From an uncultured Clostridia bacterium (lineage in GTDB: Bacteria; Bacillota; Clostridia; Oscillospirales; Oscillospiraceae): 60,474 nucleotides of DNA. The notes beneath the pieces are model-generated. The model was not told the DNA's origin. It was given only the letters and a program-made list of their open reading frames with translations, and ran no database searches. The position numbers and the translations under genes were made by a program. Below, one piece after another: positions 45,510-52,196 of this stretch. How positions within the stretch are numbered: the stretch's first letter is position 1; each line of letters opens with the position of its first letter. The stretch is taken from contig CAMUYE010000002.1 of assembly GCA_947164825.1 (NCBI GenBank), positions 1 to 60,474 on the forward strand, read 5' to 3'.

Positions 45510-45776
45510 ATGAACTACGGTACAGAGTATTGGTTTTTAACGGAAAGTGATTACGCGGATCTTGTTAATGCCTGCCAGGCGGCAGGCGCCACGTACGCGC
45601 TGACGGCTTTTGGCACCGCTCATCATGTATCCGAGGGTGACTACAAAGGATATTACTTTGATATGGATGAGATTGACACCGAAGAGATGGAATGGCTCGG
45701 CGAAACTTTTATGTCCTTTGATCTGCGGGTTGTGAACCTGTCTGTTCAGGCCGGTTGGTCACCCGTCGTTCCCTGA
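45510..45776 (+). CDS. Small protein of unknown function, possible substrate of the adjacent cassette
   Basis: An 88-aa acidic protein starting MNYGTEYWFLTESDYADL and ending VNLSVQAGWSPVVP. I chose ATG 45510 because AAGGAGGAT sits 7 bp before it; ATG 45504 is too close. It has no signal peptide or transmembrane helix. It lies just upstream of a PqqD-like gene, so it could be a leader-type precursor or a partner protein, but no core motif proves this. Confidence 0.6.
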   Translation: MNYGTEYWFLTESDYADLVNACQAAGATYALTAFGTAHHVSEGDYKGYYFDMDEIDTEEMEWLGETFMSFDLRVVNLSVQAGWSPVVP

Positions 45777-45825
45777 ACCGGGATCGAAGCGTGAAGCTTG
45801 ACGGACTTCTGAGGTGGAACTGCAG

Positions 45826-46119
45826 ATGAACTACCAACCGCGCCCGGGCATCGTTAAGACAACGCTTTGCGGAATGCAGGTGTTGATCCCAAGCCGTGAG
45901 GCGTCTGCCTACTGCGGCTCGATCCAAAGATTGCCGCTGATTTGGTCGGTCGCCTGGGAAGCCTTTAGCAATGGTATGACAGTGGAGAACTTTATTCCGA
46001 TCTATGCGGCGTTCACCAAAAAAGGGACGGAGGCATGCAGGGAGAATCTGGAGCTCTTCTGCCGGACAATGGTGGAACGGGGCTTTATGCTGGAAGTCCC
46101 TGAGGAAGCAGAAGCATAA
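45826..46119 (+). CDS. PqqD family protein, copy 1
   Basis: A 97-aa PqqD-like (RiPP recognition element type) protein starting MNYQPRPGIVKTTLCGMQVLIPSREA, with ENFIPIYAAFTKKGTEACRENLELF and VERGFMLEV at the end. The winged-helix fold of this family binds leader peptides of ribosomal peptide substrates. It is a paralogue of the gene at 47291 (both begin MNYxxRPGIV and share VLIPSR). Start at ATG 45826 behind GAGGTGG. Confidence 0.8.
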   Translation: MNYQPRPGIVKTTLCGMQVLIPSREASAYCGSIQRLPLIWSVAWEAFSNGMTVENFIPIYAAFTKKGTEACRENLELFCRTMVERGFMLEVPEEAEA

Positions 46120-46252
46120 AGCTTTTACGTATTTCGGTTGAGAAGCTTTCGCATTCTCTTTAGATTTGAATCCCATATAGGATTTCTATAACCTTATACA
46201 GGATAAGTTTGCCCTCCTTGCGCAAATGATCTTTGCTGCGAGAGACGGAATT

Positions 46253-46295
46253 GCAAGCCCGTCAAAACTCCGTTCAGTCGGGTTGACGGGCTTGC
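46253..46295 (+). terminator. Rho-independent terminator-like hairpin
   Basis: GCAAGCCCGTCAA and TTGACGGGCTTGC form a 13-bp stem, followed by a weak T-rich stretch. Confidence 0.7.
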
Positions 46296-46331
46296 CTCTG
46301 TTTCGTACGTTTTTGATATTTTACTTGCGGA

Positions 46332-46360
46332 GTGACAGCTTAGCCTGATAGCTCTATGAT
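46332..46360 (+). promoter_or_regulatory. Promoter very close to the kinase start
   Basis: GTGACA at 46332-46337 and TATGAT at 46355-46360, spaced 17 bp. The ATG at 46370 is only 9 bp after the -10 box and no ribosome binding site is seen, so a leaderless mRNA is possible. Confidence 0.55.
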
Positions 46361-46369
46361 AATTTCAAT

Positions 46370-47263
46370 ATGAAACACTTAATTGACGTTACCTTTGCAG
46401 GGCTGACCTTCCCCTGCGCACTGCGCTATCCTGAGACAGCCAGATATTTCCCGGCGCCGGACCCCGCCGCGTCCCGCGTCGAGGGCGAATCTGTTTGCCT
46501 GACTGAAAAAGACTGGCAATTTTATCTGGACACCGACATGGAGGACTGCGCTCACACCGAATTCAGCCTTCTCACCGCGGCCTTTTCTGACGCTCTCATG
46601 GATCACGACAGAATGATCCTTCATTCTGTGGCCCTCCGTTGGCGGGACAAGGCATATCTGATTGCCGCACGGAGCGGTGCGGGAAAGTCGACGCAGGCTC
46701 GCTGCCTGCAGGAGCTCCGTCCCGGAGAGTTTGGAATTATTTGCGGCGACCGTCCGATCCTCGAATTCCGTCATTCTGAGCGCAGCGAAGAATCCGTTCC
46801 CATCCCTGTAGCGGCGCACAGTGTGCGCCACGCGGCCATCGCATGTCATTCTGAGCGGAGCGAAGAATCCGCATCCCCGTCCTGTAGCGCGGGCAACCTG
46901 CCCGCCCGTTCCCCCGTCCCCAAGCCTTCCCCCCTGGGGAAGGTGTCGCCGCAGGCGACGGATGAGGTAATCGTCCACCCCTCCCCCTGGAACGGCAAGG
47001 AAAACTGGTACGGCGCGGAAGCCGCGCCTCTGGCGGGTTTGATTCTCCTGGAGCGCGGCGACGAAAACCGCCTTGCCGCCCTCTCTCCTCGGGAGGCTGC
47101 TATCCGTACGTATGCCCAACTCATCCAGCTTTGCAGCGATTCTGCCAAAATCAAGAAAGCTGCCGAGCTGACAACCCGTTTGTTGAACAGCGTCCCGATC
47201 TGGCAGCTCACGACCTTCCAGGTTCCGGACTCCACAAAGCTGCTGCTGGAGTCGGTTTTCTGA
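46370..47263 (+). CDS. HprK-like kinase of a PqqD/nucleotidyltransferase cassette
   Basis: A 297-aa protein. The P-loop AARSGAGKSTQARCL near residue 101 and the IICGDRPILEF segment near 124 match HprK-related serine kinases that, in lasso peptide clusters, phosphorylate peptide substrates. After GDRPILEF an extra stretch of about 66 residues (RHSERSEES... to ...PQATDE) is written entirely by dispersed repeats, after which the family sequence resumes with HPSPWNGKENWYG. The insert keeps the frame, but it lies beside the active site and may inactivate the enzyme or form a loop. No HTH or regulatory domain of true HprK is present. Confidence 0.82.
   Translation: MKHLIDVTFAGLTFPCALRYPETARYFPAPDPAASRVEGESVCLTEKDWQFYLDTDMEDCAHTEFSLLTAAFSDALMDHDRMILHSVALRWRDKAYLIAARSGAGKSTQARCLQELRPGEFGIICGDRPILEFRHSERSEESVPIPVAAHSVRHAAIACHSERSEESASPSCSAGNLPARSPVPKPSPLGKVSPQATDEVIVHPSPWNGKENWYGAEAAPLAGLILLERGDENRLAALSPREAAIRTYAQLIQLCSDSAKIKKAAELTTRLLNSVPIWQLTTFQVPDSTKLLLESVF
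46771..46968. repeat. Stack of four dispersed repeat families inside the kinase gene
   Basis: TCATTCTGAGCG...GAAGAATCC at 46771-46795 and again at 46846-46870; a GTAG palindrome at 46808-46831; a second GTAG element (GGGCAACCTGCCCGCCC) at 46884-46909; and CCTTCCCCC...GACGGATGAGG at 46924-46968. Together they are about 198 bp, a multiple of three. Confidence 0.85.
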
Positions 47264-47290
47264 CATTCTGCCATGAAAGATGGTGCAACT

Positions 47291-47596
47291 ATGAACTATA
47301 CAGCCCGTCCCGGGATCGTCACCGCCCAGCTGTGCGGCATGAACGTCCTGATCCCATCCCGGATTACCGGCGACGCCTGCAAGACGATCCTTCCCCTGAC
47401 TCTGATGGGCGCCATCGTGTGGACCGGCATCCAGAAGGATTATCCCATCGAAAAGGTTCTGGAGGCCTTCCGAATCTTTTCCAAAAAGCCCGATGAGGAG
47501 TTCATCGAAAAAATCGATTCTTTCTGTGAAAAGCTCTATCAAAAAGGATTCATCATTCCAAAAGAAGCTCCTACCGTAGAGGTGAGCCCATCATGA
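47291..47596 (+). CDS. PqqD family protein, copy 2
   Basis: A 101-aa PqqD-like protein (MNYTARPGIVTAQLCGMNVLIPSR, VLEAFRIFSKKPDEEFIEKID, KLYQKGFIIPKE). It lies 27 bp after the kinase gene and overlaps the nucleotidyltransferase gene by 4 bp, so it is translationally coupled to it. I start at 47291 by alignment with copy 1; 47273 is an alternative. Confidence 0.82.
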   Translation: MNYTARPGIVTAQLCGMNVLIPSRITGDACKTILPLTLMGAIVWTGIQKDYPIEKVLEAFRIFSKKPDEEFIEKIDSFCEKLYQKGFIIPKEAPTVEVSPS

Positions 47597-48996
47597 AGCG
47601 GACAGAGGAGTTCCTTTTAGAGTTGCTTCGTGCCGGCCTTCACACCGAAAAACCTGCCGATCCGGCACTGAACCCGGAGGAATGGAAAGAGCTGCTGCGT
47701 CTCGCGGAGGCCCACAAGCTGCTGCCGCTGATCCTCGACGCCGCCTGGTCTCTGCCCTCCTGCCGCGCAGCCCTCCGACAAAGCCTTCCCCCTGGGGGGA
47801 AGGTGTCACGGCCGGAGGCCGTGACGGATGAGGGGGCGGAACGACAAGCAGCGGTATCGACCAACGGCAGCAAGTGCGGAGAGCCGCCTCATCCGTCCTC
47901 CGGCTTCCGTGAGACGCCGGAGTCCACCTTCCCCTCACGGGGAAGGCTTAACAGGGAGTACCCTGACTGGAAAACCGCCGCCTTGGCCCAAGTCTCCCGG
48001 CAGGCCATCCAGGAGAACGAATTTCTGAATCTGATTCTGGCGCTCCGGGAGCGCGGGCTGGAGCCTGTCGTGGTGAAAGGCGCGGTCTGCCGCGCGCTAT
48101 ATCCCAAGCCCCTGCTCCGCCCCTCTGTAGACGACGATCTCCTGATCCCCGCAGATCAGGCTCCCGCCTTCCACGCCGCTCTGCTGGAGCTGGGCCTGAC
48201 CGCCGACGACCCCGCAGCGGATCCCGAGAAGGCCTGGGAGCTGAGCTACCACAAGCCAAACAGCCCCCTCTATATCGAGCTGCACAAGTGCCTGTTCGAT
48301 CCGGATTCCGAGGTTTTCCGGAGCTTCAACGAGCCCTTCGACGGCGCTCTGGACCGAACGGTCCCGGTGCAGATCCAGGACGTGACGCTCCGCACCCTTG
48401 CTCCGACGGATCATTTGCTGTTTCTGATCCTCCACGCCTTCAAGCACTTTCTGCACAGCGGCTTCGGCCTGCGGATCGTGTCAGACGTCTGCCTCTATTC
48501 CCGGCAGCACGCAGAGCAGATCGACTTTGCAAGAATTGTCGCCGTCTGTGCGGCCCGGCGCTGCGATCGTTTTACAGCAGCGCTGTACCGGATCGGGGAG
48601 AAGCAGCTCGGGATTCCTGCGCCTGCTCCGTTCGCTGCTATCGAGACGGACGAAACCGCTTTGCTGGAGGACGTGCTCGCCGCCGGACTGGTAGGCGCGG
48701 AGATCGATCGGCTCCACAGCGCGAACATCACGCTCGGCGCCGTGTCCGACCAGAACACGGGCCGAAGCAGCGGCGGCGGCCTGCGGAAGAGCCTCTTTCC
48801 GTCGGCAAAGCAGCTTGCGGGCCGTTATCCCTGGCTGGAGAAGCGCCCCTGGCTCCTGCCCGCCGCCTGGGCCGCCCGCGTCGCGAGCTATCTGAAGAAC
48901 CGCGGCAAATACGGCGCCGAGAACCCCACGGCATCCCTCCGCATCGGCAAGGAGCGCGTGGAGCTGTTGAAAAGCTACGGCGTCATTGATAATTGA
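47593..48996 (+). CDS. Nucleotidyltransferase family protein (NTP_transf_5-like)
   Basis: A 467-aa protein. The core VVKGAVCRALYPKPLLRPSVDDDLLIPA near residues 158-185 has the DDD metal motif of the uncharacterised nucleotidyltransferase family often linked to HprK-like kinases in peptide clusters; YIELHKCLFDP near 226 and HLLFLILHAFKHFLHSGFGLRIVSDVCLYSR near 275 fit the same family. Residues about 64-120 are an insert of about 57 aa written by an inverted-repeat element (47781-47949). The insert is N-terminal to the catalytic core, so activity may survive. The C-terminus (LLKSYGVIDN) is intact. Confidence 0.82.
   Translation: MKRTEEFLLELLRAGLHTEKPADPALNPEEWKELLRLAEAHKLLPLILDAAWSLPSCRAALRQSLPPGGKVSRPEAVTDEGAERQAAVSTNGSKCGEPPHPSSGFRETPESTFPSRGRLNREYPDWKTAALAQVSRQAIQENEFLNLILALRERGLEPVVVKGAVCRALYPKPLLRPSVDDDLLIPADQAPAFHAALLELGLTADDPAADPEKAWELSYHKPNSPLYIELHKCLFDPDSEVFRSFNEPFDGALDRTVPVQIQDVTLRTLAPTDHLLFLILHAFKHFLHSGFGLRIVSDVCLYSRQHAEQIDFARIVAVCAARRCDRFTAALYRIGEKQLGIPAPAPFAAIETDETALLEDVLAAGLVGAEIDRLHSANITLGAVSDQNTGRSSGGGLRKSLFPSAKQLAGRYPWLEKRPWLLPAAWAARVASYLKNRGKYGAENPTASLRIGKERVELLKSYGVIDN
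47781..47949. repeat. Inverted-repeat element inside the nucleotidyltransferase gene
   Basis: AAGCCTTCCCCCTGG (47781) faces CACGGGGAAGGCTT (ending 47949); inside, GACGGATGAGG faces CCTCATCCGTC, and GGCCGGAGGCC forms a small palindrome. The left half is the same family as 46924-46968 in the kinase gene. Confidence 0.85.
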
Positions 48997-49011
48997 TGGC
49001 GCTTCCGTACC

Positions 49012-49048
49012 AAGAACCCACAGGGAATCTGCTTCCCTGTGGGTTCTT
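49012..49048. terminator. Terminator hairpin after the cassette
   Basis: Perfect 16-bp arms, AAGAACCCACAGGGAA and TTCCCTGTGGGTTCTT. Degenerate ~26-bp repeats of its right arm continue to about 49158. Confidence 0.75.
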
Positions 49049-49216
49049 CGGGTATTGATGTTCCTGTGTGTTCTCGGAAAGCTGCTTTCCTGTGGATTTT
49101 TTGAAGCTGTTTTGCTGTGGGCTTTGGGAAATCTGTTGCTTCATGGGGTTTCCGCTTGACCCCTGCCGCTTCTTGTGGTAAAATCCAGTCGATACATCCG
49201 CATAGGAGGAACAGCT

Positions 49217-51203: not shown

Positions 51204-52196
51204 ATGCCTGTCAATCTCAGAGGACGCAATTTCCTGAAGCTGCTCGACTACACTCCCGAGGAGATCCGCTATCTGCTGGACCTCGCCCATGAATTCAAGC
51301 GTATGAAGATGGCCGGTGTGCCTCACCGCTATCTGGCCGGCAAGAACATCGTTCTGCTGTTCGAGAAGACCTCTACCCGTACCCGCTGCTCCTTTGAGGT
51401 GGCCGGCATGGATCTCGGCTGCGGCGTGACCTACCTGGATCCCGGTTCTTCCCAGATGGGCAAGAAGGAATCCATCGCCGACACCGCCCGTGTCCTGGGC
51501 CGCATTTACGACGGCATTGAGTACCGCGGCTTTGACCAGAGCATTGTCGAGGACATCGCCAAGTACGCCGGCGTTCCCGTCTGGAACGGCCTGACCAACC
51601 AGTTCCATCCCACCCAGATGCTGGCCGACGTCATGACCGTCGAGGAGAACTTCGGCCATCTGAAGGGCATCAACTTCACCTTCGTCGGCGACGCCCGCAA
51701 CAACGTCGCCAACTCCCTCATGGTGGTCTCCGCCAAGATGGGCATCAACTTTACCGCCTGCGGCCCCAAGGAGCTGTGGCCTGAGGAAGGTCTGATCGAG
51801 ACCTGCCGGGAAATTGCCAAGGAGCACGGCTGCACCATCCGTATGACCGACGACGTCAAGGAAGGCACCACCGGCGCCGACGTCATCTACACCGACATTT
51901 GGCTGTCCATGGGCGAGCCCGACGAGATCTGGGCCAAGCGTATCGCCCTGCTGAAGGACTACCAGGTCAATAAGGAACTCATGGCCAACGCCAAGCCCGA
52001 GGCCATCTTCCTGCACTGCCTGCCCTCCTTCCACGACACCAACACCACCATCGGCGCGGACATCGCCAAGAAGTTCGGCGTCAACGAGATGGAAGTTTCC
52101 GATGAGGTCTTTGAGTCCAAGCAGTCCAAGGTCTTCGACGAGGCCGAGAACCGCATGCATACCATCAAGGCTGTCATCTACGCCACCCTCTGCTAA
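51204..52196 (+). CDS. arcB: Ornithine carbamoyltransferase (catabolic type by context)
   Basis: A 330-aa carbamoyltransferase with [15 protein letters not shown] near 53 (carbamoyl phosphate site), [12 protein letters not shown] near 131 and LHCLPSFHD near 270. After arcA it would split citrulline to carbamoyl phosphate and ornithine. Carbamate kinase and an arginine/ornithine antiporter, the usual partners, are not in the window. A terminator follows at once. Confidence 0.96.

Follow-up and report, generated by a model that had tools for sequence, protein, structure and literature searches.

A four-gene cassette encoding two RRE proteins (RRE, RiPP recognition element; RiPP, ribosomally synthesized and post-translationally modified peptide), an HprK-like kinase and a nucleotidyltransferase-fold enzyme is carried by the window, the 60,474-nucleotide stretch of contig CAMUYE010000002.1 analysed here, which comes from an uncultured Clostridia bacterium of the Oscillospiraceae (assembly GCA_947164825.1). 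On balance, it is rather more probable than otherwise that this cassette forms the core of a cell-surface-linked RiPP system similar to the linear polyphosphorylated peptides (LPP), with an 88-residue protein encoded just upstream as its precursor. The LPP family of Popov et al. 2026 (PMC13381572) is the closest known kind. The arrangement has a precedent in the LPP clusters published there, which combine a kinase, an RRE, a nucleoside triphosphate (NTP) transferase and an MsbA-like exporter and have no cyclase. An initial annotation, made from the DNA letters alone, had described the RRE–kinase–RRE–nucleotidyltransferase quartet, and the four open reading frames (ORFs) are indeed found at that place. 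The nucleotidyltransferase, which it had described as translationally coupled, overlaps the second RRE gene (RRE-2) by 4 nt, sharing the sequence ATGA with its stop codon.

Conserved Neighbourhood of the Cassette

The window genome (G000, with the window as its contig C2) is represented by an assembly that is 82% complete, and most of the sampled genomes are incomplete metagenome-assembled genomes (MAGs). Its closest named relatives are rumen and gut Clostridia and Oscillospiraceae MAGs. Kinases of the surface type were found at 15 loci (L numbers) in 13 genomes (G numbers) of the genus, as well as in G026, a member of another genus. Fourteen clusters, 13 from the genus and L043 of G026, have at least 3.8 kb of sequence upstream of the kinase, and BLAST detected a homolog of the giant surface protein of the window there in 12 of them; the count excludes L223 and L225, whose upstream sequence measures 0.1 and 1 kb, respectively. 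All 12 giant-bearing clusters also have a lipoprotein and a small protein, the lipoprotein of L043 being located after the RRE. Within the genus alone, 11 of the 13 clusters have the giant protein, a lipoprotein and a protein of 72–97 residues ahead of the kinase gene. The recurrence of the same upstream genes in 12/14 clusters exceeds the chance association that the initial annotation had considered.

More distant loci carry parts of this arrangement. L130, from an Erysipelotrichaceae MAG, encodes an exporter, a 1618-residue VWA protein, an 81-residue protein, the kinase, the RRE, a 90-residue membrane-anchored acidic protein and the nucleotidyltransferase (NTP_transf_5), while L126 and L132 comprise a small ORF, kinase, RRE, lipoprotein, NTP_transf_5 and an exporter-like ORF. 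In L131 the small ORF is accompanied by a kinase–RRE fusion, and the L113 locus is cut at the kinase.

Related short kinases were also seen in other Clostridia, most of them with an RRE and several with signal peptidase I (SpI)-like and NTP_transf_5 genes. They lie directly behind an SLH (S-layer homology) protein recognised by Pfam in L198 and L212, and behind a lipoprotein-like ORF in L201, L203 and L205, and they follow a long ORF in L202 and L211, the lipoproteins and long ORFs having been assigned by pattern or by eye. This surface-neighbour theme is a lead only, since it comes from 20 regions, several of them without such a neighbour, and has no background rate. The 20 regions were taken from a wider kinase search that matched 111 of 391 genomes of the class and probably took in genuine HprK as well as RiPP kinases; its total is not a count of cassettes. 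One of them holds the second short kinase of the window genome (G000:C22:20470-21144), which is distantly related and beside which no RRE was recognised. Lachnospiraceae loci such as L072, L079 and L100 carry a radical SAM-like ORF (a pattern match) beside the RRE and kinase near NTP_transf_5, several with SpI-like ORFs nearby, and are apparently other RiPP types.

The HprK-Like Kinase

The sequence match of the window kinase to known families is weak (HprK_rel_A, E 0.003, far below the cut-off), and searches of solved structures with one of the kinases or the kinase profile returned chance or generic P-loop matches only. His85, Lys106, Asp127 and the W-x-G-K-E motif are invariant in 12/12 kinase rows aligned. 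The structural model has a mean pLDDT (predicted local distance difference test) of 84, with 216 of its 297 residues at 90 or above. The sampled surface-type kinases form one clade of 13 rows (support 100/99) in a tree that leaves out several of them, such as L038, L043 and L223–L227.

The window kinase contains an insert that is modelled as a disordered hairpin loop. This loop measures 21–84 residues in 10 of the 15 genus clusters, with differing sequences and inside open frames (the 26 residues of L224 were counted by hand), and 12–14 residues in the other five and in L043, L126 and L130–L132. Exact copies of the HSERSEES DNA unit number 7 in the window genome, 156 in G003 and 47 in G018; a control with the reversed unit gave 0 in all 18 genomes. 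The in-frame inserts of the kinase and the nucleotidyltransferase are reminiscent of Rickettsia palindromic elements.

The RRE Proteins and Their Leader Pocket

Neither of the window PqqD-like proteins, searched singly against Pfam and NCBIfam, gave a match, nor did PF05402 over the window genome; these empty single-sequence searches called for a comparison of profiles. An alignment of 12 genus RREs (A5) matched one of 10 other RREs (A6), which includes the PF05402-recognised L130 and L070, at 98.4% in hhalign (E 7e-15). A joint 20-row profile (A3) found LppB (9x8z, E 1.3e-6), PbaB1 (9x90, 2e-6) and TbiB1 (2.4e-6), the identities of 9x8z and 9x90 being taken from PMC13381572; these matches to solved LPP and lasso RREs are not independent, as 9 of the 20 rows themselves match PF05402. 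In the AlphaFold2 model of RRE-2 (pLDDT 89), three helices come after the strands. Judged by profile and model, the two window proteins are predicted to have the RRE (PqqD) fold. Among the genus clusters seen, a second RRE (RRE-1) occurs otherwise only in G018. In L131, a single 396-residue chain (L131:3848-5038) joins the kinase to a C-terminal PqqD domain (PF05402 at residues 328–384, E 2e-12) and is followed by a second, free RRE.

The leader Tyr is bound in LppB by Asp70, and the bend at the leader Pro is held in place by Asn33 (PMC13381572). Among 25 surface-type RREs aligned, with L131 represented by its free RRE only, this Asp is kept only in L130 and L131, whose leaders are of the lasso/LPP-like kind (YSTPVL and YQSPVL, respectively); YxxP followed by x-hydrophobic likewise occurs only in these two among 16 small proteins. 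In L126, L132 and L043 the leader motif begins with Phe, and the Asp position of the RRE is occupied by Thr, Gly and Leu, respectively. The genus RREs have lost the leader-binding Asp in all 19 cases, with Lys or Arg there in 13, and have replaced the Asn in 16, by Pro in 11; FxxP was seen in two genus small proteins (L032, L228). This pairing of pocket and leader, in small numbers, fits the small protein as the probable RRE ligand.

The Candidate Precursor

The giant SLH protein, the lipoprotein and the 88-residue protein had all been named as possible substrates in the initial annotation. Of the three, the 88-residue protein is the best precursor candidate. Two blocks are conserved in the small proteins of 11 genus clusters, one near the N-terminus and centred on [LFI]-[TSP]-x-x-[EQD]-aromatic (z 5.2, 0/40 shuffles), the other near the C-terminus and containing S-x-Q-[A/P] (z 8.2, 0/40 shuffles). 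The pattern S.Q[AP] is found within the last 30 residues in 7 of the 11; for the first 10 small proteins, 7 were observed against a shuffled mean of 0.07 and a largest shuffled value of 2, with a motif picked after looking. A similarity search among the first 12 reported only the pair from the window and G018 (E 3e-5). These blocks mark a real family and are not proof of a modification site. The 11 genus lipoproteins have a C-terminal block of their own (z 6.0, 0/40 shuffles). Among literature titles, none relevant was found that links the SLH domain to HPr kinase or to PqqD, and the LPP name occurs in one paper of the open-licence literature searched.

The Nucleotidyltransferase and the Exporter

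From its sequence, the nucleotidyltransferase is identified with certainty as NTP_transf_5; its insert spans residues ~66–122. An ortholog of an MsbA-like ABC exporter (at least 58% identity) is present in 15 of 17 genomes with an NTP_transf_5 ortholog, the match in G011 being partial and at a contig edge, and in 0 of 19 genomes without one, where the best match reaches 39% (G023). In seven of these 15 (G005, G011, G014, G016, G018, G020 and G026), an MsbA-like ABC protein directly follows NTP_transf_5. The exporter ortholog of L034 has MsbA_rel as its best NCBIfam match, below the cut-off. The exporter ortholog of the window genome is located on another contig (G000:C118:1100-2851), so the exporter is unlinked rather than absent. 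The lack of an exporter recorded in the initial annotation holds for the surroundings of the cassette, in which neither a cyclase nor a B2 or exporter gene was recognised, and does not extend to the genome.

Relation to Lasso Peptides and Other Known Systems

Lasso cyclase (NF033535) was found in none of 24 genomes (the window genome, 22 others of the genus and 1 of another genus), five of which are at least 90% complete. The search was not blind, as shown by NF033535 signals below the cut-off in 9 of 14 control genomes. For the B2 transglutaminase-like peptidase, Transglut_core3 matched in 13/24 genomes, always inside frames of 516–879 residues and once over the cut-off. The sequence data indicate that the cassette is not a broken lasso cluster, in agreement with the initial annotation, which had suggested a stand-alone modification system and had seen no lasso cyclase; a full lasso cluster elsewhere that might own these genes did not appear in these genomes either.

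Paeninodin/pseudomycoidin-type lasso peptides likewise employ a kinase (PadeK/PsmK), the nucleotidyltransferase-like PsmN and a PqqD-type B1 protein, and unlike their clusters the cassette has no cyclase, B2 or WxxP leader (PMC9266682). In pseudomycoidin, PsmN led to a hexose on phospho-Ser (PMC9266682). Kinase-dependent polyphosphorylation of Ser has been reported for lasso systems (PMC9266682) and for LPP (PMC13381572).

The LPP systems described in PMC13381572 and the cassette have in common a discrete RRE, an HprK-like kinase, an NTP transferase, a short precursor candidate and the lack of a macrolactam cyclase. They are also alike in the MsbA-like exporter, though it is unlinked in the window genome, and the YxxP leader of LPP is shared by the two distant members L130 and L131. 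Polysaccharide genes adjoin LPP clusters and at least L130. In contrast with LPP, the RREs of the genus have a remodelled leader pocket, there are sometimes two of them, and the locus includes a giant surface protein and a lipoprotein. The window protein does not match the LPP precursor leader YxxPxVLxHQxIxFETxxS. The hosts here are Clostridia and an Erysipelotrichaceae MAG, and Clostridia go unmentioned in the text of PMC13381572. An HprK-like kinase and a PqqD-like protein are also combined in HPr-rel-A (TIGR04352/TIGR04353) and SynChlorMet (TIGR04249/TIGR04248), with weak matches far below the cut-offs; unlike in these systems, no radical SAM-like ORF was noticed in the surface-type loci listed.

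Proposed Mechanism and Alternatives

In the LPP-like system that we favour, the N-terminal part of the 88-residue protein would be held by one or both RRE proteins and brought to the kinase, which may phosphorylate, and perhaps polyphosphorylate, a Ser, most likely the one in the S-x-Q-[A/P] block near the C-terminus. NTP_transf_5 would then build on the phospho-Ser with a sugar or a nucleotidyl group, nucleotidylation being unproven. The linear product would leave through the MsbA-like exporter encoded on the other contig and could function at the envelope alongside the lipoprotein and giant SLH protein. A more specific version, which we put forward tentatively and hold to be possible rather than probable, is that of a surface-anchored RiPP: the cell would produce a phosphorylated small peptide, export it and display it together with a dedicated lipoprotein and a giant S-layer-type adhesin, the RRE having swapped its Asp/Asn pocket for one of mostly Lys/Arg and Pro that reads a hydrophobic-[ST]-x-x-[EQD]-aromatic leader. 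Such a peptide would work on the envelope of its own cell and not as a secreted antibiotic.

In favour of the LPP-like system stand the lack of a cyclase, the conserved neighbourhood, the single kinase clade, the kinase–RRE fusion of L131, the co-occurrence of exporter and nucleotidyltransferase, the conserved blocks of the small proteins, the leaders and pockets of L130 and L131, and the published polyphosphorylation of Ser by related systems. Several points weigh against it. Each chemical step is inferred, and so are the choice of precursor, the modified residue and the part played at the surface. In nearly all the kinases compared, Gly precedes the invariant Asp, at the position where HprK has a second catalytic Asp; lasso kinases also carry this second Asp (PMC9266682). 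The YxxP-hydrophobic leader is absent from the genus small proteins (the window protein reads YGTEYWFL), L226 has YxxP yet its RRE has no Asp, and S-x-Q-[A/P] is absent or altered in 4/11 small proteins (L038, L224, L227 and L228). G016 and G020 have kinase, RRE, nucleotidyltransferase and exporter but no adjoining giant protein. Conversely, G010 (72% complete) has the kinase, RRE, giant protein, lipoprotein and small protein, and its NTP_transf_5 and exporter orthologs were not found. G013 and G015 have an NTP_transf_5 ortholog with no exporter ortholog found, and the 39%-identical ABC protein of G023, outside the genus, blurs the edge of the exporter family.

The leader peptidase is a further difference. 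LPP clusters have an SpI-like (SipW) enzyme (PMC13381572), and a scan with a lax SpI-like pattern found none in the surface-type loci (0/12 and 0/15, two sets that overlap in part, disregarding a single antisense chance match in L060/L035) and none at 35–55 kb of the window. Across 80 loci, 26 contained an ORF with an S26-like pattern (the chance match of L060 among them), and in many of these the ORF lay within a few kb of a related kinase belonging to another clade. Homologs of the L093 peptidase were not found in the window genome and were found in 8/18 genomes, never on a cassette contig, so that a peptidase might act from elsewhere. Since the core genes agree with LPP and the leader peptidase does not, the cassette is called an LPP-like working variant and is not filed as an LPP member.

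The modified substrate might instead be the lipoprotein or the giant SLH protein, altered before Sec export by way of a conserved tail, which we regard as somewhat unlikely. The lipoprotein occurs in all 11 giant-bearing genus clusters, with its end as its conserved part, and is found elsewhere in the operon in L043, L113, L126 and L132, with a membrane-anchored look-alike in L130; related Clostridia kinases also follow a lipoprotein-like ORF, an SLH protein or a long ORF. Nevertheless, the kinase and RRE show no apparent signal peptide, Sec substrates are normally exported unfolded, the GVGGN tail of the lipoprotein has no Ser or Thr, and the co-occurring exporter points to a cargo without a signal. 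The enzymes could also phosphorylate or decorate a sugar carrier, as helpers of an envelope polysaccharide, an unlikely role in our judgement. L130 does adjoin a polysaccharide tyrosine autokinase gene (TIGR01007), and the neighbours of L043, L113 and L132 look similar from a reading of their ORFs, but RRE proteins bind peptides, one of them is fused to the kinase, and glycan genes were not recognised beside the window cassette.

Decay of the locus has little probability. Repeat inserts of roughly 60 residues in both the kinase and the nucleotidyltransferase, together with an exporter that is not adjacent, could suggest broken enzymes and a lost transporter. However, the inserts are in frame, the body of the kinase is mostly modelled at pLDDT >90 around the disordered hairpin, its His, Lys and Asp are intact, the same loop is enlarged inside open frames in most genus clusters, and an exporter ortholog is retained elsewhere in the genome. 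It is highly improbable that the cassette is left over from, or a satellite to, a lasso cluster with its cyclase in an unassembled part of the genome. The tailoring enzymes are those of paeninodin-type clusters (PMC9266682) and the assembly is incomplete, as such an origin would have it, but the cyclase result in the 24 genomes largely refutes it, and distant loci, too, keep the synteny without a recognised cyclase.

Gene Layout of the Window Locus

All window genes from the giant protein to NTP_transf_5 (Table 1) lie on one strand, with a 250-nt gap between RRE-1 and the kinase. For the small protein, the longest ORF has 90 residues; the start that yields 88 has the better ribosome-site spacing by eye. 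A domain search identified a metallophosphoesterase (49175) and an arginine deiminase (49927) downstream of the cassette, followed by an ORF at 51204 that we take, by reading alone, to be ornithine carbamoyltransferase. In the relatives L032, L033 and L035, a gene of ~650 residues lies between NTP_transf_5 and the metallophosphoesterase; the window lacks it (48996-49175). An Rfam scan of 45.0–49.2 kb gave no match.

Table 1. Features of the cassette and its upstream genes (positions in the window).
Feature	Position	Strand	Remarks
Giant surface protein, 2443 aa	37768..45099	+	3 SLH domains and Flg_new repeats; PF00395 E 4.9e-34, PF09479 E 2.5e-29
Lipoprotein-like protein, 106 aa	45173..45493	+	Ser/Thr/Glu-rich stalk, C-terminal tail GVGGN; lipobox read by eye
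Candidate precursor, 88 aa	45510..45776	+	No apparent signal peptide; N block YWFLTESDY, C block VVNLSVQAG
Ser codon of SVQA, proposed phosphorylation site (inferred)	45741..45743	+	
RRE-1 (PqqD fold)	45826..46119	+	From the ATG used by homologs; ORF 45814-46119
HprK-like kinase	46370..47263	+	H85, K106, D127 and W-x-G-K-E motif invariant in family
In-frame repeat insertion in kinase	46771..46968	+	Approximate limits; two HSERSEES units and a palindromic unit
RRE-2 (PqqD fold)	47273..47596	+	Or from ATG at 47291
NTP_transf_5 nucleotidyltransferase-fold enzyme	47593..48996	+	PF14907 E 2.3e-45
In-frame palindromic repeat insertion in nucleotidyltransferase	47785..47955	+	Approximate limits

Significance

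The authors of the work on LPPs and paeninodins describe the biological role of these peptides as unknown and point to polysaccharide genes nearby (PMC13381572). Here, synteny links a related cassette to a small peptide, a lipoprotein and a giant surface protein, and the question of what such systems do becomes an envelope hypothesis that can be tested. The cassette offers an apparently leader-peptidase-free version of an LPP-like pathway, and its family is a natural experiment on the co-evolution of the RRE pocket and the leader.

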